Part shown: piece after piece, positions 140-47,044 of the stretch
Layout: each line of letters opens with the position of its first letter
How positions within the stretch are numbered: the first letter of the stretch is position 1
Program-made: the position numbers and the translations under genes
The notes under the pieces: model-generated
Databases searched by the model: none
What the model was told of the DNA's origin: nothing
What the model saw: only the letters and a program-made list of their open reading frames with translations
Origin: Bacteroidota bacterium
GTDB lineage: Bacteria; Bacteroidota; Bacteroidia; NS11-12g; UBA955
Reading direction: 5' to 3'
Assembly: GCA_023957335.1 (NCBI GenBank)
Contig: JAMLHC010000004.1
Span: 186,001 to 250,000, forward strand
Length of the DNA stretch: 64,000 bases

Positions 140-211
140 TTATGAACAACAATAAAAAAACGTTAGTCAGAATTATAGCGGACAACTACAATCAATGAAA
201 AAAATATTATA

Positions 212-952
212 ATGACGGAGGATAAACTAGCAGTATTAATTGACGCAGATAATGTTCCATACGCAAATGTGAAAGAGATGCTCGAAGAAATTGCAAAAAA
301 TGGAACACCAACTATAAAGCGAATCTATGCGGACTGGACTAAACCAACGGTTGCTGGCTGGAAAAATGTCCTTTTGGAAAATGCAATCACACCGATTCAA
401 CAATACAGCTATACTACAGGAAAGAATTCTAGTGATAGTGCAATGATAATTGATGCAATGGACATTCTTTACTCTGGAAAAGTGAACGGTTTTTGTATTG
501 TATCTAGTGACAGTGACTTTACTAGATTAGCTACTCGTCTTAGAGAAGCAGGAATGACTGTAATTGGATTTGGAGAGAAGAAAACACCACAGCCTTTCAT
601 TTCAGCCTGCGACAAATTTATTTATATAGAAATTTTGAAAATGCCAGTTTTAGAAAGCGCCACTAATACTAAAGCTGTTGCAAAAGCTCAAAGTGAAAAA
701 CCACTCAGTAAAGTAGATGCTGAAACAATTAGAATTCTAACAGAAAGTGTGAACGATTTGGCAGACGAAACAGGCTGGACATTTTTGGCAAACCTCGGCA
801 ATTATATTCTTAAGAAGAAACCCAATTTTGACCCAAGGAATTATGGGTTTGCTAAATTATTACCCCTAATAAAAGACACAAAAAAGTTTGATATTGATGA
901 ACGAGAAACAGTAGTAGGTAACGTTAGACATATCTACATAAGGCAAAAATAA
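212..952 (+). CDS. NYN-domain (LabA/PIN-like) protein with C-terminal OST-HTH/LOTUS domain
   Basis: The 246-residue protein has an N-terminal NYN nuclease-fold domain. The motif LIDADN (residues 9-14) supplies D11 and D13, D75/D81/D84 lie in the SDSAMIIDAMD segment, and SSDSDF is at 98-103. These are the clustered acidic residues of the PIN/NYN metal site. Residues about 170-246 fit an OST-HTH/LOTUS fold (TGWTFLANLGNYI, then a basic DPRNYGF segment), which in known proteins binds RNA. NYN-LOTUS proteins are common in bacteria and are generally presumed RNA-processing or RNA-degrading; no substrate is evident here. The gene stands alone and is followed after only 5 nt by an attC-like inverted repeat, so it looks like a mobile single-gene cassette. 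The family call is firm and the biological role is open. Confidence 0.85.
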   Translation: MTEDKLAVLIDADNVPYANVKEMLEEIAKNGTPTIKRIYADWTKPTVAGWKNVLLENAITPIQQYSYTTGKNSSDSAMIIDAMDILYSGKVNGFCIVSSDSDFTRLATRLREAGMTVIGFGEKKTPQPFISACDKFIYIEILKMPVLESATNTKAVAKAQSEKPLSKVDAETIRILTESVNDLADETGWTFLANLGNYILKKKPNFDPRNYGFAKLLPLIKDTKKFDIDERETVVGNVRHIYIRQK

Positions 953-957
953 CTACC

Positions 958-1087
958 GCTAACAAAGGTTTTGCAATAGTGGGGCTGAAAGTTATGGGTT
1001 CAGCATTTGTACTACTATTGAGATTTAGTGCAACATCAACTGACGTTCTTCGATTGCCCCACCATCGCAAAGCCCTTTTCCGTTAGC
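958..1087. repeat. attC-like imperfect inverted repeat 1 (cassette recombination site?)
   Basis: A 130-bp element begins GCTAAC (958-963) and ends CGTTAGC (1081-1087). Its outer arms pair imperfectly: GGTTTTGCAATAGTGGGGC (967-985) against GCCCCACCATCGCAAAGCCC on the right side, with bulged positions. A long middle section contains GCATTTGT and TTCTTCGATTG. Short complementary AAC/GTT core boxes at the ends of a long folded stem, lying just after a gene, are the hallmark of integron attC sites. The core boxes do not match the RYYYAAC/GTTRRRY consensus fully, and no integrase is present in the window. Related copies lie at 3530-3656 and, more degraded, at 35307-35428. Confidence 0.55.
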
Positions 1088-1204
1088 AGACACCCCACGA
1101 GCGACCGTGCAAATATCAACAGTCTGACAAATTTCTACATCGGACTGACTTCAAACAGAAATTAAAATCGTAAATTTGAGGCGTAACTTACGAAATTGAG
1201 TAAA

Positions 1205-2119
1205 ATGACAAATAATAAAATAGCAAAACCGTTTTTGAAGTGGGCAGGTGGAAAAACCCAACTCATTAACGACATTGAACGGACTTTGCCGACAGACATA
1301 ACGCAGACGAATTTTACATACATCGAACCATTTGTTGGGAGTGGTGCGGTACTTTTTTGGGTCTTGGACAACTTCCCAAAACTAAAAAAAGCGGTAGTCA
1401 ACGACATCAACGAGGATTTAATAAACACTTATAAAACGATTGCTTCACAACCAAAAGAGTTAATTTCAATTCTGCAAGTTCTGCAAAACGAGTATCACAA
1501 TTTGGAGGGAAACGAAGACAACAAAAAGCTCTATTACTATCAAAAAAGAGAATTGTACAACATAAGAAAAGAAGAACAAAGCGGACAAGCCGCTTTGTTT
1601 ATTTTTCTTAATCGCACTTGCTTCAATGGTTTGTATCGAGTTAATCGCAAGAACGAATACAATGTTCCAATGGGCGGTTACAAAAAGCCAACTATTTGCG
1701 ACAAAGAGAATATTTTGGCAGTAAGCGAAGTATTACAAAAAGTAGAAATTTTGTGTGGCGATTTTGAGCAGACACTAAATTATGTGGACAATAATTCATT
1801 GTTTTATTTTGACCCACCATACAAGCCGTTAAGCGAAACTTCAAGTTTCAATTCGTATGCAAAAGATGAATTTAACGACAGCGAACAAATTCGCTTAAAG
1901 GCTTTTTGCTCAAAATTAGACGGATTAAATCACACTTGGATTTTAAGTAATTCAGATGTAAAAGGCAAAGATGAAAACGATAATTTCTTTGACGATTTGT
2001 ATGCTGACTTTTCAATTTCGAGAGTGAACACAAAAAGGAGTATTAACGCAAATCCTGAAAAAAGAGGATTATTGACAGAATTATTAATTACAAACAACGC
2101 AGTAGCTTTAACAATATGA
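1205..2119 (+). CDS. DNA adenine methyltransferase, D12 class (Dam/DpnM type)
   Basis: This is an alpha-class N6-adenine methyltransferase using S-adenosylmethionine. FLKWAGGK (residues 10-17) is the SAM-binding motif, and DPPY (203-206) in FYFDPPYKPL is the catalytic motif. About 304 residues is a little longer than E. coli Dam. I chose ATG 1205; an in-frame TTG at 1196 would add three residues, and no ribosome-binding motif decides between them. The stop overlaps the next gene's start by 4 nt (ATGA), and the third gene is coupled in the same way, so 1205-3560 is a three-gene restriction-modification operon. Alpha-type plus beta-type methylases with one nuclease is the arrangement of the DpnII/MboI systems that act on GATC; GATC specificity is inferred, not shown. 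Confidence 0.85.
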   Translation: MTNNKIAKPFLKWAGGKTQLINDIERTLPTDITQTNFTYIEPFVGSGAVLFWVLDNFPKLKKAVVNDINEDLINTYKTIASQPKELISILQVLQNEYHNLEGNEDNKKLYYYQKRELYNIRKEEQSGQAALFIFLNRTCFNGLYRVNRKNEYNVPMGGYKKPTICDKENILAVSEVLQKVEILCGDFEQTLNYVDNNSLFYFDPPYKPLSETSSFNSYAKDEFNDSEQIRLKAFCSKLDGLNHTWILSNSDVKGKDENDNFFDDLYADFSISRVNTKRSINANPEKRGLLTELLITNNAVALTI

Positions 2120-2637
2120 TTTTTGGAGGTAAAGGAGGTGGAAACACCAAAACAGGATTAGTATTTGAAGGAACGACAGACCTTTCTGAATTTTTAAATT
2201 CGCAAAAAGGTTACAAGGTTCAAGATGGAAATGTTTCTTACAATAACGAACTTGTCGGCAGAATTTTTAAGAAACACGGTTTTTATAAATTTCTTGATGA
2301 ATTAAACATTGAATGGAAAGGTTTAATTTCTAAGCGATTGCTTCCTGATGATAGCATTTTTGTTATCATAGCTAATACACTTTTTATTATAGAGTGCAAA
2401 TTTCAACAAGTTGCAGGTTCAGTTGATGAAAAGTTACAAACTTGCGATTTTAAAAGAAAGCAGTATCAAAAACTTTTAGCACCAGCAAACATTGAAGTTG
2501 AGTATATCTATCTGTTGAGTGATTGGTTTAGAAAACCGGAATACAAGGATGTTTTAGATTACATTCATAGCGTTCATTGTTATTACTTTTTTGAATATAT
2601 TCCATTAGTTAAACTTGGTTTACCAGTTCCAAAATGA
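2116..2637 (+). CDS. putative type II restriction endonuclease, PD-(D/E)xK fold
   Basis: This 173-residue protein lies between two methylase genes and overlaps both by 4 nt, the position expected of the cognate nuclease. It carries a PDD...ECK signature: P77-D78-D79, then E93-C94-K95 at the end of a hydrophobic beta strand (FVIIANTLFIIECK), matching the PD-(D/E)xK catalytic core. It does not resemble the DpnII or MboI nucleases, which are near 280 residues, so the recognition site is uncertain. The N-terminus is Gly-rich (GGKGGG). I recognise the fold and the context but not a specific named subfamily. Confidence 0.65.
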   Translation: MIFGGKGGGNTKTGLVFEGTTDLSEFLNSQKGYKVQDGNVSYNNELVGRIFKKHGFYKFLDELNIEWKGLISKRLLPDDSIFVIIANTLFIIECKFQQVAGSVDEKLQTCDFKRKQYQKLLAPANIEVEYIYLLSDWFRKPEYKDVLDYIHSVHCYYFFEYIPLVKLGLPVPK

Positions 2638-3560
2638 TTGAGCCATTTTTCAAATCTGACGACAAAAACTTCTATCTTCTAAAAGGAGATACAATGAATC
2701 TTTTGCCTCAATTTGATCACAAGTTCGATATGATTTTTGCTGATCCACCCTATTTTTTATCGAACAACGGACTGTCAATACAAAATGGAGAAATTGTAAG
2801 TGTAAACAAAGGAAAATGGGACAAATCCGAAGGGTTTGAGTTTATTAATGACTTCAACAGAAAATGGCTTTCATTGGTTCGTGATAAAATGAAAGATGAC
2901 GCAACCATTTGGATAAGCGGAACAATGCACAATATTTTTTCGGTTGGACAAATCTTGACCGAATTAGGCTTTAAAATATTGAATATTGTAACTTGGGAAA
3001 AGACCAATCCACCTCCAAATTTTTCGTGTCGTTATTTCACTTATTCAACCGAACAAATTATTTGGGCAAGAAAAAGCGAAAAAGTACCGCATTACTTCAA
3101 CTATGACTTAATGAAGCAACTCAATGGCGACAAACAAATGAAAGATGTTTGGAAATTACCTGCCATTGCACCTTGGGAAAAATCTTGTGGCAAACACCCG
3201 ACACAAAAACCATTATCGGTTTTGACACGACTTATCTTAGCTTCTACAAAACCAAACGCTTGGATTTTAGACCCATTTGCAGGTAGTTCAACAACAGGAA
3301 TTGCAGCTAATTTAGCGAATAGAAGATTTTTAGGCATTGACCAAGAAGAAGAATTTTTGACAATTAGCAAAAACCGTAAACTTGAAATAGAAAATCCGAA
3401 AATTGCAACAACATACAGACAAAAAATTGGCGGGTTCAACAATAAAAAAGAACTTGAATTATTCCTTGTCGAAGAACCAAGAACAGAATATAAAACAGAA
3501 ATAAACTTTGACCGAAAACGGGGCGATCTGCTAACATCGGTTTTGCAAGAGAGCGGGTGA
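2634..3560 (+). CDS. DNA methyltransferase, beta class (DpnA/M2.MboI-like)
   Basis: The 308-residue SAM-dependent amino-methyltransferase has motif IV DPPYFLS near the N-terminus (DPPY at 37-40) and the SAM-binding motif DPFAGS at 213-218. This order marks a beta-class N6A/N4C enzyme. The segment after DPPY (FLSNNGLS...SVNKGKWDK) is characteristic of the second methylases of DpnII/MboI-type systems, which can modify single-stranded DNA; that role is taken from the family. It is the third gene of the operon, with a 4-nt overlap to the nuclease gene. Its last 10 codons run into the attC-like repeat that starts at 3530. Confidence 0.85.
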   Translation: MIEPFFKSDDKNFYLLKGDTMNLLPQFDHKFDMIFADPPYFLSNNGLSIQNGEIVSVNKGKWDKSEGFEFINDFNRKWLSLVRDKMKDDATIWISGTMHNIFSVGQILTELGFKILNIVTWEKTNPPPNFSCRYFTYSTEQIIWARKSEKVPHYFNYDLMKQLNGDKQMKDVWKLPAIAPWEKSCGKHPTQKPLSVLTRLILASTKPNAWILDPFAGSSTTGIAANLANRRFLGIDQEEEFLTISKNRKLEIENPKIATTYRQKIGGFNNKKELELFLVEEPRTEYKTEINFDRKRGDLLTSVLQESG

Positions 3561-3656
3561 AGTGCTTCGTATGAAACTTTTTGCTAAATTTGAACTTCGG
3601 TTCTTCGATTGAGCATTTGTGCTAAAAATCCGCTCCCTCGCAAAGCCAAAAACCGT
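3530..3656. repeat. attC-like imperfect inverted repeat 2
   Basis: The element begins GCTAAC (3530-3535) inside the 3' end of the methylase gene and runs to CCGT at 3653-3656, 7 bp before the left end of the insertion sequence. GGTTTTGCAAGAGAGCGGG on the left pairs imperfectly with TCCGCTCCCTCGCAAAGCC on the right. The middle carries TTCTTCGATTG and GCATTTGT, which are also present in repeat 1, so the two are the same family. The right core box is altered (CCGTCAAAC instead of CCGTTAGC), perhaps a result of the IS arrival. Confidence 0.5.
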
Positions 3657-3662
3657 CAAACT

Positions 3663-5382
3663 GTCTAATAACCTCTTACTTTTTAACACACAGATTGTTA
3701 ATAAGTTATATCGAAATTAGTTGCTTAACGAATTGATTGTCAGTATATTTACTGCATGAAATTCATACAAGGCAAGGACAGAAATCAAATCACTTTCTTT
3801 TGTTTGGAAGAGCAAATTGAGCATAATAATGAAATCAGGTTTATTGAGCTGTTTGTGAACAGCATCAATTTAGCTGATGCGGGTTTTAAATTGGACTTTA
3901 TTGAAAATGGGCGTCCCGCCTATCACCCTGCTGATTTGTTGAAGCTGTTTTTGTATGGTTATTTGAACCGCATACGCTCCTCGCGTCAGTTGGAAAAAGA
4001 ATGTAAACGAAACATAGAATTGATGTGGCTCATGCGTGGTCTTGTTCCTGATCACAATACCATTGCCAACTTTAGAAAAGACAATCCTCAAGCCATTAAA
4101 AATGTGTTTCGTTCAACCGTCAAACTCGCACAACATTTTCAGTTGATTGGCGGTAAGTTGATTGCCGGTGACGGAACCAAACTCCGTGCACAAAACTCCA
4201 AGAAAAACAACTTTAACGAAAAAAAAATAGAGCGGCACATTGCCTATATCGATAACAAACTTGATGAGTACAACTCTATATTAGCAAGCGAAGACAAGGA
4301 TTTAAGTGAGGAGAAAAAGCAAGAAATCAACAGCAAAATCAATAAGCATCAGCTGCATAAAAAACAATACCAAGATTTTCAAAAGCAATTAGAGGCAACA
4401 GGTGAAGTTCAAATTTCTACTTCTGACCCTGAATCCAGACAAATGATTGTTCGCAACAACATTACCGAGGTGGCTTATAACATCCAAAGTACCGTGGATG
4501 CCAAACTCAACATTCCAATTAATTACGAAGTTACCAATGAGAATGATTCCAAAGCCATGGGAAGCATGCTCCAGCAAGCCGTTGAAGTATTAGGAAATAA
4601 TGAATTTACTGCCGTTTTTGACAAAGGCTACCACACCGGAAGTGAGTTCAAAAAAGCAGATGGACTGGGCGTAGATGTGGTGGTGGCTATTCCCGATATT
4701 TCTTCCTCTTCTATGGCTCCTGACCCTTCATACAACGTAGCCAACTTTGTTTTCAATGAAGAAGAAAACGTTTACATCTGTCCGCAGGGAAACGCACTTT
4801 CTACCAATGGTAAATGGTACAAAAAAGACCGCAATTATGAAGGAAGAAAAAAGCAGCCACCGATTTTGGTTCAGCATTACAAAACAACAGCCTGCAAAAC
4901 CTGTCCACTCATCAACTCCTGCACCAAAAACACAAGAGGTAGAGGCAGAGTTATTGAGCGAACAGAATTTGCACCATACATAGAAAAAAACAAACTTCGT
5001 ATGCAACAAGCCGGTGATCTCTACAGAAAACGACAAGCCATTGTGGAACACCCTTTCGGGATTATCAAACGCCAGTGGGATTTTTACTATGTCATGACCA
5101 AACAAGGAATATCAAGAGCCTCTGCCGATGTAGGCTTGATTTTCACCGCCTTTAACCTACGTAGAATCTTTAATCTTCTTGACCCAAATCTGCTTAAAAA
5201 GTTCCTCAAAGAACTTGGCTTTATTTTTTCCATTCAGAGGAGTCAATTTAAGGCGTTTTACGACACTTTCTTTTTCAAAAAGTGGGGATCATCTTCTAAA
5301 ATAAATCTCATTTTAAGTTCCTGAAAGTGGAGTTATTTGCATAGTATTGCGAAAGGATTAATGAGAAATTAGGTTATTAGAC
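3663..5382 (+). mobile_element. IS1182-family insertion sequence, apparently complete
   Basis: Perfect 12-bp terminal inverted repeats, GTCTAATAACCT at 3663-3674 and its complement AGGTTATTAGAC at 5371-5382, enclose one intact transposase gene. The 1720-bp length suits the family. No clear target-site duplication is visible; both flanks share only a short ACT. The left end abuts attC-like repeat 2 and the right end leads into the region upstream of the AbiE operon. Confidence 0.8.
3756..5324 (+). CDS. IS1182-family DDE transposase
   Basis: The 522-residue transposase has an N-terminal DUF772-type DNA-binding region (HPADLLKLFLYGYLNRIRSSRQLE) and a C-terminal DDE catalytic domain. The likely triad is D139 (IAGDGTKL), D289 (AVFDKGYH) and E431 (IVEHPFGIIKRQW). 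A four-cysteine segment (ACKTCPLINSC) and a charged, probably helical insertion around residues 160-220 are typical of this family. The reading frame is intact and flanked by matching terminal repeats, so the element is potentially active. It is the only transposase gene in the window. Confidence 0.92.
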   Translation: MKFIQGKDRNQITFFCLEEQIEHNNEIRFIELFVNSINLADAGFKLDFIENGRPAYHPADLLKLFLYGYLNRIRSSRQLEKECKRNIELMWLMRGLVPDHNTIANFRKDNPQAIKNVFRSTVKLAQHFQLIGGKLIAGDGTKLRAQNSKKNNFNEKKIERHIAYIDNKLDEYNSILASEDKDLSEEKKQEINSKINKHQLHKKQYQDFQKQLEATGEVQISTSDPESRQMIVRNNITEVAYNIQSTVDAKLNIPINYEVTNENDSKAMGSMLQQAVEVLGNNEFTAVFDKGYHTGSEFKKADGLGVDVVVAIPDISSSSMAPDPSYNVANFVFNEEENVYICPQGNALSTNGKWYKKDRNYEGRKKQPPILVQHYKTTACKTCPLINSCTKNTRGRGRVIERTEFAPYIEKNKLRMQQAGDLYRKRQAIVEHPFGIIKRQWDFYYVMTKQGISRASADVGLIFTAFNLRRIFNLLDPNLLKKFLKELGFIFSIQRSQFKAFYDTFFFKKWGSSSKINLILSS

Positions 5383-5703
5383 GGACTGACGTTATGGGCA
5401 AGCGTAGGACACAGCTACGAACCAAGCGACATCTTGGCGAAAAAGTGCAGACAATAAATTGCAAACCATTTTGACAGCGGACAGCAAAGCTGAATTTTAA
5501 TTTAAGATTTATTTTTTCCCACCACACAGAAAAATTTTGAAGTTCTAAAACCAACGCACAAACGGCACATTTGCAAACCGCACCAAGCCCACCCACCACC
5601 CAAAGTTTGCAAAAGAGCCGTTTTTTGCCACCCACCGACAAATATGTTTCATATCTTAATTATCAGTTAAAATCTGATTTTTCAACATCAGACAATATTT
5701 TTA
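5383..5703. other. gene-free stretch between the IS and the AbiE operon
   Basis: About 320 bp between the right end of the IS and the AbiE promoter holds no credible gene. It contains a GACGTTATGGGC motif (5388-5399) like some attC right ends, and pyrimidine/purine-skewed DNA with repeated CACC/CCCA runs (about 5580-5640). Open frames here have implausible composition. It may be debris of earlier cassettes. Confidence 0.4.
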
Positions 5704-5761: not shown

Positions 5762-6583
5762 ATGAGAAATAAATACATATCAACACAATCAAACGAATTG
5801 TTGTCGTATTGCAACGAGCAGCAGCAGCCTTGTTTTGACTTTGCTTTGGCTCAAAAAGCATTGCCAAATTCAAAAGCGGGAGCAATTCGAGAGTTGTTGA
5901 GTGATATGACCAAGCGTGGACTATTGATGCGTTTGAAAGAAGGAATTTATCACGTCATTCCTTATGAAGCCAACGCAGAAACATTTATGCCCGATTGGCA
6001 TTTGATTGCCGAATACATCGTAAACGATGCACAGCATTACATCGGTTATTATTCGGCTTTGCAAATTCACAACTTGATTACACAGCCTTCTTTGAAAGAA
6101 CAAATCGTTGTTTCAAAACAATTACGACCTTCGGAAATTAAAATCAAAGAAGTCCCTTTTCAATTCATCTATCACAACGAGAAACATTTTTTCGGTGCAA
6201 AAAAAATGTGGATTGACAGTTTTCACAAAGTGTTGTGTTCCGACTTAGAAAAAACTTTTATTGATTGTTTGTTCAAACCTAACTACGCAGGAGGAATTGT
6301 TGAAATAGCAAGAGCAATCTTCGTTTCAAAAGACAAAATAAAATACGACACTTTACTTGAATACGCAAAGCGTTTTAATTCGCAAGCTGTGATAAAGCGG
6401 TTAGGTTTTTTGTTAGAATTGTTGGAAATAAAAACTAACATCATTGATGAATTACAGAAACTAAAAACGGTTTCATACATCACGCTTGATACAGAATTAC
6501 CAAAAACGGGAAAATACAACACACGTTGGAGTGTGTTACAAAATTTGGAAACAGAAACAATTAAATCAGCAATATACACGTGA
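5762..6583 (+). CDS. abiEi: AbiEi-type antitoxin / transcriptional repressor (type IV toxin-antitoxin)
   Basis: The 273-residue protein matches the AbiEi family. An N-terminal winged-helix region (residues about 15-65, with LLSDMTKRGLLMRLKEGIYHVIP) is followed by the antitoxin domain (HYIGYYSALQIHNL, EKTFIDCLFKPNYAGG). Known AbiEi proteins repress their own promoter and counteract the AbiEii nucleotidyltransferase toxin without direct binding. The gene opens an operon and overlaps abiEii by 4 nt. No inverted-repeat operator was identified upstream. Assignment rests on family motifs and the adjacent toxin. Confidence 0.88.
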   Translation: MRNKYISTQSNELLSYCNEQQQPCFDFALAQKALPNSKAGAIRELLSDMTKRGLLMRLKEGIYHVIPYEANAETFMPDWHLIAEYIVNDAQHYIGYYSALQIHNLITQPSLKEQIVVSKQLRPSEIKIKEVPFQFIYHNEKHFFGAKKMWIDSFHKVLCSDLEKTFIDCLFKPNYAGGIVEIARAIFVSKDKIKYDTLLEYAKRFNSQAVIKRLGFLLELLEIKTNIIDELQKLKTVSYITLDTELPKTGKYNTRWSVLQNLETETIKSAIYT

Positions 6584-7383
6584 TAAAACCGGGCGAAATA
6601 CAACAAAAAGCAAGAACAGCAGGCGTTCGAGACCAACAGATTGAAAAGGATTATATTCTTTCGTGGATTTTGTTTGGCGTTGCAAAGCACGAACAGCTTT
6701 CAAAAGCAATTGTGTTCAAAGGCGGAACGGTGTTGAAGAAAATCTATTTTGAAGATTACCGTTTTTCGGAAGACCTTGATTTCACTTTGCTGAACAACGA
6801 AACAACCAACGAACAAATTTTTGATTGGTTCAAACAAACATTTGACTTCATAAAAGAAGAAGCAAATATTCCCCTTGAAATTATTGACGACAACCAACAC
6901 GAAGACGGTGGAATCAATTTTTACATCAGCTACATTGGTCCGCTTGGCGGACAAGGCAGCAACAAGCGAGTGAAAGTGGACATTTCACGAAGTGAGCAAT
7001 TGGTTTTTGATTCTGTGATGAAAAACGTATTCACGGATTACACCGACTTGGAAGTGCATCAACTGTTGTGCTATCCGTTGGAAGAAGTGTTGGTTGAAAA
7101 AATGCGTTCGGTAATGCAACGAATGCAAGCAAGAGATTTTTACGACTTATGGTATTTGCTTACACAATACGAAATGGAAGTTGATTTCTACTTAAACGAA
7201 TTTAAAACCAAATGCGAAAGTAAGGGCTTGAAAGCAGAAGATTTTTCAACAAAACTAAACGAGCGTTTACCTCAATACAAAGGGCGTTGGCAATCTTCGT
7301 TGAAAGAACAAATAAAAGACCTGCCCGACTTTGAACAAGTAGAGAGAGAAACATTACGTTGTTTTAGGAATGTGAAACTATGA
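6580..7383 (+). CDS. abiEii: AbiEii-type nucleotidyltransferase toxin
   Basis: The 267-residue protein has the nucleotidyltransferase fold of AbiEii/AbiGii toxins. FKGGT (residues 46-50) is the nucleotide-binding GG motif, followed by RFSEDLDF with D65 and D67 as metal ligands. A later K-x-R segment and RDFYDLWYLL near residue 187 complete the family pattern. Homologues transfer nucleotides to RNA such as tRNA acceptor ends and cause growth arrest that aborts phage infection. Translation starts at GTG 6580 inside the antitoxin stop overlap, which suggests translational coupling. Its own stop overlaps the next gene by 4 nt, which is unusual because AbiE systems normally consist of two genes only. 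Confidence 0.9.
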   Translation: MIKPGEIQQKARTAGVRDQQIEKDYILSWILFGVAKHEQLSKAIVFKGGTVLKKIYFEDYRFSEDLDFTLLNNETTNEQIFDWFKQTFDFIKEEANIPLEIIDDNQHEDGGINFYISYIGPLGGQGSNKRVKVDISRSEQLVFDSVMKNVFTDYTDLEVHQLLCYPLEEVLVEKMRSVMQRMQARDFYDLWYLLTQYEMEVDFYLNEFKTKCESKGLKAEDFSTKLNERLPQYKGRWQSSLKEQIKDLPDFEQVERETLRCFRNVKL

Positions 7384-9368
7384 AATACTTAGAGTGGAAT
7401 AATATCATATCAGAATACTTTTTCAATCCTGCCAACGCAGGTAGGGACATTTATTTGTACCTAACCAAGAACGACATCATAAACATTGGGAGGCCACATT
7501 TTACTGATGAAACAGAAGAAAATATTTGGAATGATTTTATCACTTCTATCAAGCGTGGCATTCCGGGTTCAAACGGAAATACTATTGCAAAAGCAAAATT
7601 TGCTCATTCAAAAAACAACCTTGTTGGCTTAAAGAAATCGGACGGAACATTTGCTACAATAGATGATGTTCCTGTTATTTTTCCACCGTACATTTCATTC
7701 CTAATTTTCATTGTATTACCGTTAGTAGAAAATGTAGATGACACTAACTTAAGAGCAAACAACTATTATGGCAGACTGAATGCCTTTTTACAAAATCATC
7801 AAATAAATGAAAACATCGGGACAAACGATTTTAACAGCAATCAAATAAATTGTTTGTGGGAAGATTTAGCAACTTGGGCAAATATAAAAAACAACGGAGA
7901 TTTGGGAGTATTCAACCTCATTCCGTTTTCAAATACTAATTGGATTTATGTTGGGAAAGTTTTTTCGCAATGCGTTTTACCGCCAAAGTTTTTAAACCGT
8001 TTACCGGAATTATTTGAAGCTATCGGGTTAGTTCCTGATACTTTTTACGAAGACCGTTTTTTGCAAGAAAAAATCAAAAACAGCAGAACGGATTTAATTC
8101 CTAAAAACACATTAGACTTTTTGAAAAAAGATGATGAGTTAGCAAATTCTATCATTCAAACCATACAACGCCAATATAGGAAATGGACAGGCGAAACTCA
8201 CGAAGAAATTGAAGAGGGAACAACACTACGAAAGAAAAGAAATTACACGATTGCACCTTTGTTCCTTCAATTCAAAGTAAATACCAATGATGAAGAAATT
8301 AAGTTTTCGTACAGAATGTATTCTTCTAATGATTATCCCGAAGATTTGAAATTTGATACACTTGAAAACTTGTATGAAATAAATGGTTGGTCTAAAACGC
8401 TTCCGCTTGATTTCACAGAAGGACTTGAACTCAAAGACAATTTCAATAAATGGATTGCAAAATTCCCTGACCGTGATGTAAGATTATTTGTAAGTGCGGG
8501 AACACAACAATTAAGTAATGATTTTTGGATTGAAACAGACGTTCTTTCAAAAACAGACCGAATGTATTTGTTATGCAAAAATGGGAAACAAAAAGAAATA
8601 GAAGATTGGGGAAAAACATTTAGCAACGGAAATTTTAAAAAAGAAGATTTTGATGGTTTGCCTGAAAACTATTCGCTGTTTTGGTTTCGCAATCCAACAC
8701 AAGGTCTTTCTGAAATTTCAATTCTTACGCTCTACACTGAAAAACGGATTGAGTTGGTTGGTGGACTAAAAGTGAGTTTCAGAACGTACACCAATAACTT
8801 TTTGCCGGAAGTTGAAATTATCAATTCAGACGGCAATGAAACCGTGTATTTACAATACAAAGGAACTGACGAAAAGATATTTCTTTCTAAAAAAACATCA
8901 CTCAATGCTCGTTGGTTTTTACCCGAAAAAACGGCAATAAATACCGATTTTTACATAAAAGTTGAGAACGAAAATTTTGCAGGAAATGAGCTTGCATACA
9001 ATCTTTCTTCATCTGACAACACAGCATTAAAAATTGATGATTCTAAATTGCCGAAACGAGATTCCTTTGTAATCAACGGACACAACAAATCTGAAAGAAC
9101 TGGGATAATGTTCAGTATAGGGCTGATTAAAAGCCAATATATGGATTTTATTACCCAGATAGGAACAGACAGTGATTTAAGCTTGCCTCACTCAATCCCG
9201 AGAGTTGGAATAACAGGTGAAGAGATGTTGAGCGATGACAGCGACCAACGATACATCTCCGCTTCCATAAGCATTTTAGGTACAGGCTTGTCTGACTCCT
9301 TTGTTAGGAAGCCTGCCTCTCCCTCCCTCCAGATTTACAGTATAACCAATACCTCATATAATGTCTAA
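7380..9368 (+). CDS. large protein of unknown function, third gene of the AbiE operon
   Basis: I do not recognise this 662-residue protein. It has no signal peptide, no membrane helix clearly long enough, and no P-loop or obvious nuclease motif. The N-terminus (WNNIISEYFFNPANAGRDIYL) and a hydrophobic stretch PPYISFLIFIVLPLVE (about 100-115) precede an alpha-rich region. From about residue 270 the protein is rich in charged, probably beta-strand segments (residues 270-560). The start overlaps the toxin stop by 4 nt and its stop overlaps the next start by 8 nt, so it is co-translated with a toxin-antitoxin pair. A role in defence is inferred from position only. Base composition is similar to its neighbours. 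Confidence 0.8.
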   Translation: MKYLEWNNIISEYFFNPANAGRDIYLYLTKNDIINIGRPHFTDETEENIWNDFITSIKRGIPGSNGNTIAKAKFAHSKNNLVGLKKSDGTFATIDDVPVIFPPYISFLIFIVLPLVENVDDTNLRANNYYGRLNAFLQNHQINENIGTNDFNSNQINCLWEDLATWANIKNNGDLGVFNLIPFSNTNWIYVGKVFSQCVLPPKFLNRLPELFEAIGLVPDTFYEDRFLQEKIKNSRTDLIPKNTLDFLKKDDELANSIIQTIQRQYRKWTGETHEEIEEGTTLRKKRNYTIAPLFLQFKVNTNDEEIKFSYRMYSSNDYPEDLKFDTLENLYEINGWSKTLPLDFTEGLELKDNFNKWIAKFPDRDVRLFVSAGTQQLSNDFWIETDVLSKTDRMYLLCKNGKQKEIEDWGKTFSNGNFKKEDFDGLPENYSLFWFRNPTQGLSEISILTLYTEKRIELVGGLKVSFRTYTNNFLPEVEIINSDGNETVYLQYKGTDEKIFLSKKTSLNARWFLPEKTAINTDFYIKVENENFAGNELAYNLSSSDNTALKIDDSKLPKRDSFVINGHNKSERTGIMFSIGLIKSQYMDFITQIGTDSDLSLPHSIPRVGITGEEMLSDDSDQRYISASISILGTGLSDSFVRKPASPSLQIYSITNTSYNV

Positions 9369-10758
9369 CAACTATTTAAACATACAGAATGACAAAAAGG
9401 CTGTGAACCCAAATATCAGCATTGCGCAATTTATCAGTGATTTGAAAGTTGTAGAAGATATATATTTCAATGTTTTTGATGATAAAGATTTAAAAAAGAC
9501 CTGTACAAGAATTAGAGTACATTATTATGGTGATGCAATAAAATTTAATTCTATTCAAGCACCATTTATAGGAGATGTTTTTAACAATACTATCCCATTA
9601 GCATCTTATTATGATTCAGTGAATAATGAAAGAAGACTTTATTGGGAACACTTCTTTTTAATGAATAAATCAATAGTTTATGAAAGATTAACATCGCAAG
9701 CAAGTGAGAATGGAATAGGAGATAATCCTAGTCCTTATTTGGTACACAACGGGAATAAAATAGATTTAGGTCAGGTTCTATATGGGTTTGAATCATTGGT
9801 TTATCAAAAAGATGTCGGGGATTACAAGGAATATGATACATATCAGGAACCTAATCCTAATAGAAGTCCAAAAACATATAGCAGATCCTATAATTCAATA
9901 CCTTTAAGAAGGATTAATGATTTAGCGGGCTGGTTAGCAAATGTTGCAACACCAATATCAGAGGTATTACAACATAGAATAAATGGAGAGTCTAAGTATA
10001 AAGATGACAAAAAAATAAAAAATCCACCTGCTTCAGAAACAGAAAGAGATAGATATTATGAAATATCAGCTCCTGATGCTGATTTATTTGGAAATGTGGA
10101 TGCAATAGGTATCTATTACGCATATAAAAAATTAGAAAGTTATTATTTAAATAATAATAGCGAAAAACCCAGATTATCTGACGTTTTTGAATTATACTAC
10201 ACAGGTAAATCTCGCTTAAAATTCAACCACCTAGCTGCATTTATACCAGGAGAACCTCAACCTATGTCACATACAGCAGATAAAAGATGGTTGATATTTA
10301 GCATTCATTTTGGGTTTGCTAAATATATAGGTATGAATAAGTTTCAATGGATACCTGAAAGCGAAGCATGGCATATTTTTTTAACTGAAACTACAAAGGA
10401 ATCAAATCATATTAATCATAAGTCTTTGAATGAAAGGTTAACTTTGTTCGCTGAGTTTTGGGCTACAATATTACCCTTTTACGGCAAGGATGCTTTTTGG
10501 ATGTGGGGGAAGAAAAAAAGTGAAGGATTGAGGGTGGCAGACATTGGAGTTACGATGGCTGCTAATTTAGATCCCTTTGCTATTCCTTTTTTGGGATACA
10601 AAATATTTAAATTTGACTCTTCTAATGATATGTTAAACGCTACTGATTTAACAAATATTGAAAACAACAAGAAATATTTTTTTGAGACTAAATTTTTACC
10701 TTGGTTAAAGGCAAAAATCCTCACAGACATAACAGACATAACACTCACAAATGATTAA
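9361..10758 (+). CDS. unknown protein, fourth gene of the AbiE operon
   Basis: The 465-residue protein is not recognised. It appears cytosolic, with many aromatic and acidic residues (HYYGDAIKF, YYDSVNNERRLYWEHFF) and Trp-rich segments near the C-terminus (FWATILPFYGKDAFWMWGKKKSE, split around residue 375). No Walker, PD-(D/E)xK, HNH or HEPN motif was found. It overlaps the genes on both sides by 8 nt, so it is likely made in fixed ratio with the 662-residue protein and the following membrane protein. From 9361 on the DNA is noticeably more AT-rich than in the preceding genes, hinting that the block may have been assembled from more than one source. Confidence 0.78.
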   Translation: MSNNYLNIQNDKKAVNPNISIAQFISDLKVVEDIYFNVFDDKDLKKTCTRIRVHYYGDAIKFNSIQAPFIGDVFNNTIPLASYYDSVNNERRLYWEHFFLMNKSIVYERLTSQASENGIGDNPSPYLVHNGNKIDLGQVLYGFESLVYQKDVGDYKEYDTYQEPNPNRSPKTYSRSYNSIPLRRINDLAGWLANVATPISEVLQHRINGESKYKDDKKIKNPPASETERDRYYEISAPDADLFGNVDAIGIYYAYKKLESYYLNNNSEKPRLSDVFELYYTGKSRLKFNHLAAFIPGEPQPMSHTADKRWLIFSIHFGFAKYIGMNKFQWIPESEAWHIFLTETTKESNHINHKSLNERLTLFAEFWATILPFYGKDAFWMWGKKKSEGLRVADIGVTMAANLDPFAIPFLGYKIFKFDSSNDMLNATDLTNIENNKKYFFETKFLPWLKAKILTDITDITLTND

Positions 10759-11078: not shown

Positions 11079-11390
11079 ATGCCTAAATTCTATCCCCGAG
11101 TATCAAAGTTAATATCGTCAGACCGGCTTCCCGCTTACTTTAGCGAGGTTAGCAATGTATTTGACAAGCTATATTTCAGAAACTTCCAAACAGTAAAAAG
11201 TCTTGATGGAGTGACTGTTTCATATGTAATTGAACTGATAAGTTACAAAGAGCTAAAAATAGAAATAGCTGGCTCTGGTTTTAGTTTATTGCTAAATCCT
11301 GACTTTGAAAGCGATGGGTATAGCGCTTTTCCACTTTCTTTTAGCACACGATGGGGGATTAGAAAATATATTAAAAACTTCAATATTTCT
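11079..11390 (+). pseudogene. unknown gene truncated by a MITE-like insertion
   Basis: An ATG 10 nt after the membrane-protein stop opens a frame of about 104 sensible codons (MPKFYPRVSKL...). At 11391 the frame runs straight into a hairpin repeat and continues with repeat-derived sequence to 11594. The first part (ELKIEIAGSGFSLLLNPDF) looks like a genuine alpha/beta protein but belongs to no family I know. It would have been the sixth gene of the AbiE operon. No continuation of the frame is recognised beyond the element, so the 3' part is lost or has diverged. Confidence 0.5.
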
Positions 11391-11689
11391 AGCCGTGGTT
11401 GGTGTTGTCACCAACCACACCAAGAAAAACCAACCGAATACCCTTACCTAAAACCTGCATTATCACAAAACTTTAAAAATCAGCATAAAATGGTTAAAAC
11501 CATTGTAAATATATTCGTGTACATTCATAGCCCACGGTTTAAACCGTGGGCTATGATGAAAATGAATAAACAAAAAACGTTTGAACGGTTTTAATTTTAC
11601 ATTCAAACAATCAATTATGCCACAATCATTCAATAAAATATGGATACTCGCCATTTTAGGAGTGGTTGGTGACAACACCAACCACGGCT
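11391..11689. mobile_element. MITE/REP-like element with hairpin terminal inverted repeats
   Basis: Two exactly complementary 28-bp sequences at 11391-11418 and 11662-11689 bound a 299-bp segment with no credible gene. Each terminal repeat is itself a hairpin (GTGGTTGGTG-TTGT-CACCAACCAC). In the centre is a perfect 32-bp palindrome at 11525-11556 (arms TCATAGCCCACGGTTT / AAACCGTGGGCTATGA). Short palindromes of this kind resemble REP sequences mobilised by IS200-like RAYT transposases in Bacteroidota; no such transposase is in the window. A shorter degenerate relative of the outer hairpin is at 32404-32419. The element interrupts the gene before it and lies directly ahead of the acetyltransferase gene. 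Confidence 0.7.
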
Positions 11690-11746
11690 ATAAAAGACAA
11701 GACACAAAACACGTATTTTGCAATTACGTTTAAAACAATTCATAAT

Positions 11747-16918: not shown

Positions 16919-16979
16919 TTCAATATTTATTTATAAACCGAAATGTTGTCAAGAAGTGATTGGGTCTTGAAATTATGGG

Positions 16980-17078
16980 TTATCTCTCCTGATTTCTCAA
17001 GTAGAATGTAGCACCGTTCTTTTAAAAAAGAGGTTGCCAAGGTTTCATAGGGTCCATTCCCTCCACCTTTCTTGATAA
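16980..17078 (-). promoter_or_regulatory. SAM-I (S-box) riboswitch upstream of metH
   Basis: On the minus strand the leader starts TTATCAAGAAAGGTGGAGGG, continues with GGACCCTATGAAACC and TTGGCAACC, and closes with GAGAGATAA about 100 nt later. These are the P1 strands and the conserved core of the SAM-I aptamer. The aptamer lies about 60 nt before the metH start. A weak TCAAG/CTTGA stem in the remaining leader (about 16948-16970) could belong to the expression platform; no run of T follows, so control may act on translation. A TACTTTTG -10-like box at 17110-17117 fits a promoter just upstream. High SAM would reduce expression of metH and metF. Confidence 0.9.
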
Positions 17079-17172
17079 CATTTCGAATGTAAATGAGCGA
17101 ATACGGGTGCAAAAGTAAGTAAATATTCCTTAAATAAAATCCTGTTTGTCAATAGAAATATGGGGTTGATGA

Positions 17173-35082: not shown

Positions 35083-35352
35083 ATGAAAGAAATACCCAGA
35101 AAACGGTATTTAGAAACACTTCAAGTACTCAAAGACAAGAATTTAATTAAGGTTGCCACGGGCGTTAGGCGTTGTGGTAAATCAACTTTAATGACACAAT
35201 TTCAAGACTTGTTGCGTAAAGAAAATGCCAAAGTCTCCATTTTGGCAATCAATATGGATATGTCCGAATTTCGGTTTTTGGCAGAAAAAAATAAACGCAT
35301 TGGATTGGCTGACAAAGACAGAAATATAAGGGCGAAACTCACAGCGGTTTGA
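35083..35352 (+). pseudogene. N-terminal remnant of an AAA (DUF4143-type) ATPase
   Basis: About 73 residues match the beginning of AAA_14/DUF4143 ATPases: MKEIPRKRYLETLQVLKD, then the Walker A GVRRCGKSTLM and a following strand. The frame then breaks off in sequence unrelated to the family and stops at 35352, whereas complete members are near 400 residues (one is at 58364-59560). The break coincides with the left side of an attC-like element. Non-functional in all likelihood. Confidence 0.65.
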
Positions 35353-35428
35353 ACACAAGCAGGAGTAAATTGCACCGTTTGAACTTTTGTGATAAAAACC
35401 GCCACTTCGCAAAGCCGCGAAATGTTAA
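35307..35428. repeat. possible attC-like element 3, degenerate
   Basis: GCTGACAAAG at the left and CTTCGCAAAGCCGCG...GTTAAG at the right resemble the ends of repeats 1 and 2, and a GCGGTTT/AAACCGC inverted pair lies inside (35344-35350 and 35396-35402). The match is partial, so membership in the family is tentative. It follows the ATPase remnant, and its right end meets the start of the 52-bp nfu duplication. Confidence 0.35.
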
Positions 35429-35474
35429 GAACAAATTTCAAAGAGTCGGGATTGGGTGTTCCTTCAACAAAAAC
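35423..35474. repeat. perfect 52-bp duplicate of an internal nfu segment
   Basis: This segment is identical over 52 bp to 34780-34831 inside nfu, in the same orientation. The identity begins TGTTAAG and ends AAAAAC. The left edge coincides with the putative GTT core of the attC-like element 3. Perfect identity suggests a recent event. Confidence 0.92.
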
Positions 35475-46969: not shown

Positions 46970-47044
46970 TGGGAGTTGAGGGGCTCGAACCCCCGACCCT
47001 CTGCTTGTAAGGCAGATGCTCTGAACCAACTGAGCTAAACTCCC
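46970..47044 (-). tRNA. tRNA-Val (anticodon TAC)
   Basis: On the minus strand the 75-nt sequence folds as a cloverleaf: acceptor GGGAGTT/AACTCCC, D-arm TAGCTCAGTTGGTTCAGAGC, anticodon stem CTGCC/GGCAG-type with loop CTTACAA (anticodon TAC), and T-arm GGGGGTTCGAGCCCCTC. The discriminator is A; CCA is not encoded. It is an isolated tRNA gene with its own promoter (47078-47106). Confidence 0.96.

Follow-up and report, generated by a model that had tools for sequence, protein, structure and literature searches.

Near the start of a 64,000-nt stretch of a Bacteroidota genome (the window, which begins at G000:C4:186001, on contig C4 of the genome here called G000), two imperfect hairpins lie at the ends of genes. 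The locus raises the question of whether these are recombination sites of mobile gene cassettes of the integron kind and, if so, which recombinase moves the cassettes.

Two attC-like sites and their cassettes

The preliminary description of this locus reported inverted GCTAAC/GTTAGC boxes, an imperfect stem and a position 5 nt after a stop codon, noted a second copy of the same family behind a restriction-modification (R-M) operon, and proposed a cassette array carrying an NYN gene and that operon. Each of these points was borne out. The features of the array in the window are as follows.

162..1082, +, cassette 1 (NYN cassette); start at GTTAG (162) tentative
212..952, +, NYN + OST-HTH (LOTUS) protein gene, cassette 1 cargo (Pfam NYN 1.4e-40, OST-HTH 8e-16)
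958..1087, +, attC-like site 1 (boxes, folding, 28-site alignment, covariance model R1)
1083..3655, +, cassette 2 (R-M cassette); start GTTAGCAGA, left flank TCTGCTAAC
1196..2119, +, D12-class adenine methyltransferase, cassette 2 cargo (Pfam MethyltransfD12 4.6e-66; PADLOC MTase_II)
2116..2637, +, PD-(D/E)XK nuclease, probable restriction endonuclease, cassette 2 cargo (Pfam PDDEXK_11 7.2e-8)
2634..3560, +, N6/N4 DNA methyltransferase, cassette 2 cargo (Pfam N6_N4_Mtase 1.9e-58)
3530..3655, +, attC-like site 2, broken at G|TT by an insertion sequence (R1 121.7 bits)
3656..5390, +, DUF772/DDE (IS1182-like) insertion sequence at the site 2 crossover, between G and TT (transposase 3756-5324)
5391..5414, +, next cassette start (GTTATGGGCAAGCGTAGGACACAG; GTTATGGGCAAGCG), parted from site 2 by the insertion sequence; fits the cassette-start consensus

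Site 1, with GCTAAC at 958-963 and GTTAGC at 1082-1087, begins 5 nt beyond the NYN stop codon (950-952). As a single strand it has a folding energy that beats shuffled sequences (z -2.6; 1/200 shuffles equally good), and its crossover probably falls between G1082 and T1083. Site 2 follows the D12 methyltransferase, PD-(D/E)XK nuclease and N6/N4 methyltransferase operon, the final codons of which fall within the site, and terminates at G3655 because the insertion sequence (about 3656-5390) splits its G from TT. Covariance model R1, described below, scores the two sites at 86 and 122 bits, respectively. Folded alone and in place, site 2 is no better than its shuffles (z -0.6), since its right arm belongs to another element; rebuilt in circular form, it folds well, as one hairpin. 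The R-M cassette start, GTTAGCAGA, directly 3' of site 1, pairs at 9/9 positions with the left flank of its own site 2, TCTGCTAAC. The start of cassette 1 is only tentatively placed, as GTTAGTCAGAATTAT at 162 is a partial match to the reverse complement of the site 1 left flank (GTTAGCGGTAGTTAT) and a degenerate IS110-like element abuts this presumed start. That remnant, which was identified by eye and has no Pfam match, occupies L015:8800-10150, just upstream of window position 160. A weak R1 match at 35337-35429 (24.5 bits) was taken as chance, and an Rfam search of the window and of one array of 14+ sites gave no match to the sites.

The window is the distal part of an array damaged by insertion sequences. 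The DUF772/DDE element at site 2 has the same G|TT junction at a different site of the genome, G000:C3:488676 (L126:4677), and exact insertion at G|TT in two sites suggests that the element targets cassette sites. Insertion sequences adjoin several copies of the site; in this genome, a second DUF772 element has its end, ...CAACAGGTACAT, just before the L arm at the same position in three sites (L015:6627-8420, L016:5872-7668 and L071).

For the cassette start at 5391, a matching left flank was not found within the window. Directly after this start are a probable antitoxin gene and an AbiEii-type toxin gene (5762-7383; Pfam 2.4e-37), with two large genes of unknown family next (7380-10758); a search of the window for a matching closing site gave none. 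Elsewhere in the window are a SAM riboswitch (16977-17081) and a tRNA (46970-47044), both on the minus strand and ordinary, and a pair of 41-nt inverted repeats (11386-11426 and 11654-11694) that are 90% complementary and 227 nt apart.

A hairpin site family and the logic of its cassettes

One family of ~124-nt hairpin sites includes both 958-1087 and 3530-3655. The preliminary description had named an alignment of the copies as a check, and an alignment of 28 sites supports the family, with the layout NNNTAAC-A-[GCCGTTTTGC]-4 nt-[GCGGGG]-about 65 nt-[CCCCGC]-4 nt-[GCAAAGCGGC]-about 5 nt-GTTANNN. In this alignment, 95.2% of cells are paired, both sides have changed in 9 pairs, and covariation is 0.185, versus 0.058 when shuffled, with 0/500 shuffles as high; when the pairing is slid as a control, paired cells fall to 40-49%. 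From AAC to GTT, 85/143 sites measure 124 nt and nearly all others 123-125 nt.

The spread of the family was gauged by several searches. Plain BLAST with site 1 reached only 2/70 genomes of the taxonomic family and is too insensitive, while a gapped pattern search found the sites in 19/395 genomes of the class, with 0 matches for a reversed control pattern. Covariance model R1, built after that search and covering one site subfamily, detects the site at E <= 0.001 in 229/395 genomes sampled from the class, representing 123/196 genera, and also in other classes of the phylum. The window's own genome has 24 copies (R1, E < 1e-4). Neighboring sites less than 7 kb apart share one orientation in 109 cases and are opposed in 0. 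One example of these arrays is L112, with at least 14 sites on one strand in about 17 kb; L111, L115, and L120 are similar.

An integron cassette is cut at GTT, such that the sequence following a site's G is the next cassette. The outer arm of a site should therefore find its complement at the start of the cassette to which the site belongs, at a distance of one gene. This is what we find: the 6 nt after GTT are fully complementary (6/6) to the left flank of the cassette's own site in 81/105 consecutive site pairs, whereas an equally good match between the two ends of a single site is seen in only 3/143 sites. A match to the cassette's own start, rather than to the abutting sequence, is what would follow from a cut at GTT and re-formation of the site once the cassette is a circle. 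When cassette starts were re-dealt in 2000 permutation trials, the mean was 3.1 matches and the maximum 11, against the 81 observed. The matching flanks comprise 43 distinct 9-mers from 18 genomes, and the matching cassettes have an invariant unpaired A at position 10, followed by about four further paired positions. Without selection for matches, the left flank forms a duplex of -17.4 kcal/mol with its own start, compared to -8.8 with the in-place flank and -8.5 with random sequence (p 6e-15), and whole sites fold better in circular form than in place (-27.2 versus -22.3; p 2e-14). Missed sites or decayed cassettes likely lie behind the 24/105 consecutive pairs that lack complementarity.

The 84 validated cassettes have a median length of 1.1 kb; the longest open reading frame (ORF) runs forward in 79, and the median distance from its stop codon to the site is 28 nt. 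Cassette cargo includes R-M systems, a TIR effector, metal transport and an aminoglycoside adenylyltransferase-like gene. Plasmids carry the system as well, and cassettes are common to different families and genomes: pairs share 96.7% (G150 and G166), 97.4% (the window's genome and G365), 95.8% (the window's genome and G271), and 98.5% (G365 and G377) identity. In cassettes common to distant genomes, the downstream end of the shared stretch lies <=7 nt from GTT. A tandem duplicate cassette in G375 has identical site flanks and differing sequence after the last GTT.

The recombinase at the array head and its entry point

The preliminary description read the array as having no nearby integrase and proposed a genome search for an IntI-like recombinase. 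Inside the window the first statement holds; 6.8 kb upstream, a tyrosine recombinase heads the array, although it lacks the IntI-specific insertion. The two features are as follows.

G000:C4:178159-179193, intact 344-aa tyrosine recombinase heading the window's array, 6.8 kb upstream of the window's first base
G000:C4:179300, attI-like entry point, 109 nt after the integrase stop

From this gene, one of seven tyrosine recombinase genes in the genome, same-strand sites lead into the window. Relatives of the enzyme stand at the heads of arrays L109, L113, L116, L122, L131, and L134. Among 80 named integrase loci, 18/20 sites lie downstream of the integrase on its strand; of the two exceptions, the site at L172 fits the divergent subtype of L116 and that at L183 is 9 kb away. 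Integrase loci from phyla other than Bacteroidota among these 80 have no R1 site. Across the 395 genomes, the integrase (E <= 1e-75) and the site occur together in 149, the site only in 80, the integrase only in 48, and neither in 118 (Fisher p 1e-12), where the site-only and integrase-only counts were obtained with an R1 model of one subfamily, few candidates scored per genome and many draft genomes.

If cassettes enter beside the integrase, the start of the first cassette should be found there. Using the first site's left flank alone as the query and seeking an exact 9-10 nt match near the integrase, we located the first-cassette start 48-151 nt after the integrase stop in 10/14 loci. In L116, where the integrase is divergent, the start borders the 5' side of the integrase reading frame; the start in L193 is 1037 nt from the integrase, and in 2/14 loci an exact left-flank match was not found. 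Several attI-like entry sites have GCATATANACAA immediately before GTT. Two sister Chryseobacterium plasmids, with up to 96% identity, have backbone, integrase, and attI in common as far as ...CATATAAACAAGTT (...GACATATAAACAAGTT), after which their DNA differs; this divergence point is 107 nt after the integrase, and one of the two plasmids has five R1 sites in a single orientation.

Eight integrases analyzed by profile all contain an N-terminal SAM-like domain (PF13495) and a catalytic domain (PF00589), as does canonical IntI, and their best NCBIfam family is XerA/integron integrase NF040815, with 4/8 above its cut-off. They have in addition an extra N-terminal domain of about 60-80 residues with a K..W..W pattern. 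Pfam gives weak matches of this domain to DUF5710 (5.6e-4) and HARP (1.3e-3). A structure search with the domain alone returned no significant match, the first two hits being the HARP substrate-recognition domain of SMARCAL1 (E 0.36-0.43), and its profile found nothing among PDB sequences. We speculate that the domain aids recognition of folded DNA. In the integrase tree, which does not fix the deep order, site-associated integrases are scattered over several Bacteroidota branches, and we therefore claim an origin neither inside nor outside the IntI lineage.

Genomes often have one to three copies of the array-head enzyme, which is also found on plasmids. In the window's genome, a near copy at G000:C2:532004-533041 has one in-frame TGA and is probably a pseudogene, with a site about 4.4 kb away (C2:537467). 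Many Acinetobacter plasmids (H57-H81) encode a tyrosine recombinase, named TnpF in one record, that is 49% identical to this integrase family over residues 123-359. Relatives including the N-terminal extension also occur in Undinarchaeales, Spirochaetota, and Firmicutes metagenome-assembled genomes (L181, L187, and L189), with no R1 sites detected; these may use other site types.

We consider it highly probable (roughly 0.88) that the sites serve cassette recombination in an integron-like Bacteroidota system, with a tyrosine recombinase at the array head and an attI-like entry point. The site family, its covariation, the arrays, the cassette logic, the placement of integrase and attI, and the sharing of cassettes between genomes can all be read directly in the sequences, and the anatomy and cassette logic are well supported; catalysis is what we infer from them. 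The array-head recombinase, with its extra N-terminal domain, would capture circular cassettes at the attI-like site, which in most loci lies about 100 nt beyond the recombinase stop codon, and would exchange them at the hairpin sites, presumably acting on folded single-stranded DNA. The crossover would fall at the invariant GTT or inside it, and its simplest placement, the one known from integrons, is between G and TT. Sites in an array would be split, the sequence after GTT forming part of the next cassette; upon excision, the circle would bring the start of the cassette back to its own site and complete the long hairpin. The predicted hairpin consists of an R arm (about 13-15 bp, specific to the cassette, with a single A that is always unpaired), an asymmetric gap of 1 and 5 nt, an L arm of 10 bp, a 4x4 internal loop, and an inner GC stem that encloses ~65 nt. 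The window would hold the NYN and R-M cassettes of the IS-damaged distal part of such an array.

Rival readings and known systems

Could these be canonical integron cassettes, that is, ordinary attC sites moved by a standard IntI and seen here as a cluster lacking its integrase (CALIN)? The topology is the same, with gene-plus-site cassettes, GTT crossover, hairpins, and arrays of one orientation, and the AlphaFold model of the recombinase (pLDDT 86) has as its top structural match IntI4 bound to hairpin DNA (2a3v). However, the insertion that IntI has around patch III is absent: IntI4 aligns only as two segments, the roughly 42 residues between them having no counterpart, and the spacing from KGxKDR to HxLRH is 65-66 residues in the array-head integrases, compared to 107 in IntI1 and an Allochromatium IntI. 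The IntI model TIGR02249 scores them at 186-211 bits, below its cut-off of 265, with the match split in two; it exceeds the cut-off in 1/198 genomes of the class, and no site was detected in that genome. On the DNA side, the R box GTTRRRY begins 12/150 starts (9.4 expected by chance), the left box RYYYAAC is found in 8/148, and R1 gives no match on a class 1 integron locus. We regard this reading as improbable.

A bystander role for the array-head recombinase, with another enzyme such as host XerC/XerD moving the cassettes, would accommodate the 80 genomes that have sites and no integrase above threshold, as well as the seven tyrosine recombinases of the window's genome. Against it are the position of the entry point within 48-151 nt of the integrase gene in 10 loci, the location of sites downstream of the integrase, and the sister-plasmid breakpoint 107 nt beyond it, and it too seems to us a poor prospect. 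Dispersed miniature transposons (MITE, REP or IS decoys) lying behind genes by chance would explain the inverted repeats, the many copies, and the adjoining insertion sequences, but not the 109:0 orientation count; the outer repeats differ from cassette to cassette yet are complementary within each (the 43 distinct 9-mers), a pattern beyond any transposase that relies on fixed terminal repeats, and this cassette-specific complementarity contradicts the idea, leaving it scarcely credible. RNA elements or terminators are hardly tenable: the sites do fold and follow stop codons, but the covarying partner of the left flank is about 1 kb (a whole cassette) away rather than at the same transcript end, and Rfam has no match in the window or in the array of 14+ sites.

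The integron-like reading is the one we carry forward, with a limit on its name. The IntI-specific insertion has been called a defining trait of IntI (PMC9668308). Judged by sequence, the cassette system appears to work like an integron. Two defining features were tested, the IntI insertion and the GTTRRRY R box; the first is absent and the second at chance level, which places the system outside the canonical IntI/attC class. The attC identity proposed in the preliminary description accordingly stands for an attC-like recombination site and falls for a canonical attC. Shared with the canonical attC hairpin are paired R and L arms, an unpaired central region, and extrahelical bases, as seen in the covariation, the circular folding, and the unpaired A; shared with integrons in function are the one-orientation tandem array, the GTT boundary within the site, and attI beside the integrase.

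Survey tools that rely on the IntI insertion and the R box may miss a cassette system of Bacteroidota. Published surveys treat integrons as almost absent from Bacteroidetes: IntegronFinder 2.0 reported a complete integron there only in Salinibacter ruber, together with In0 elements in Bacteroidetes (PMC9024848). Such scarce reports suggest that the attC covariance model may recognize these sites poorly. If our reading is correct, integron-like sites are present in over half of the genomes sampled from the class, and cassettes can be moved through hairpin sites by a route other than the IntI-specific insertion, which has been regarded as essential. A bolder proposal, to which we give somewhat less than even odds, is that this is a second, phylum-wide integron class that arose or diverged outside the IntI lineage, recognizes folded sites without the IntI insertion, perhaps through a HARP-like N-terminal domain binding fork or hairpin DNA, and is the main cassette platform of Bacteroidota, unseen by integron surveys. 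A literature search, with preprints and subscription journals outside its scope, found no description of such a Bacteroidota system, so an earlier description is possible.

Among known enzymes, XerA and archaeal Xer (NF040815, PDB 5hxy) represent the best NCBIfam family of the integrase and likewise lack the IntI insertion. XerA, however, acts at dif on chromosome dimers, whereas the Bacteroidota enzyme is found at cassette arrays, also on plasmids, and has an extra N-terminal domain. IS1111-attC insertion sequences insert at cassette recombination sites, as do the elements described here, which in contrast are DUF772 (IS1182-like), at least at window site 2 and at G000:C3:488676. The Salinibacter ruber integron and the Bacteroidetes In0 elements are integron components in the same phylum group, but the former is a single complete case, compared to sites in 229/395 sampled genomes of the class here (PMC9024848).

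Integrons themselves, of classes 1-3 or as chromosomal superintegrons (the Vibrio VCR array, for example), are also close to the Bacteroidota system. In both systems a tyrosine recombinase stands at the head, next to attI, followed by gene-plus-site cassettes in the same orientation, with a GTT crossover and hairpin sites completed in the circular cassette, and the integrase may be co-oriented or divergent. In contrast to integrons, the Bacteroidota integrase has no IntI-specific insertion and carries an extra N-terminal domain, and its sites do not follow RYYYAAC/GTTRRRY; they have a long, cassette-specific R arm (about 13-15 bp) with an invariant unpaired A, an asymmetric gap between R and L (1 versus 5 nt), a length nearly fixed at 124 nt, and a conserved interior.
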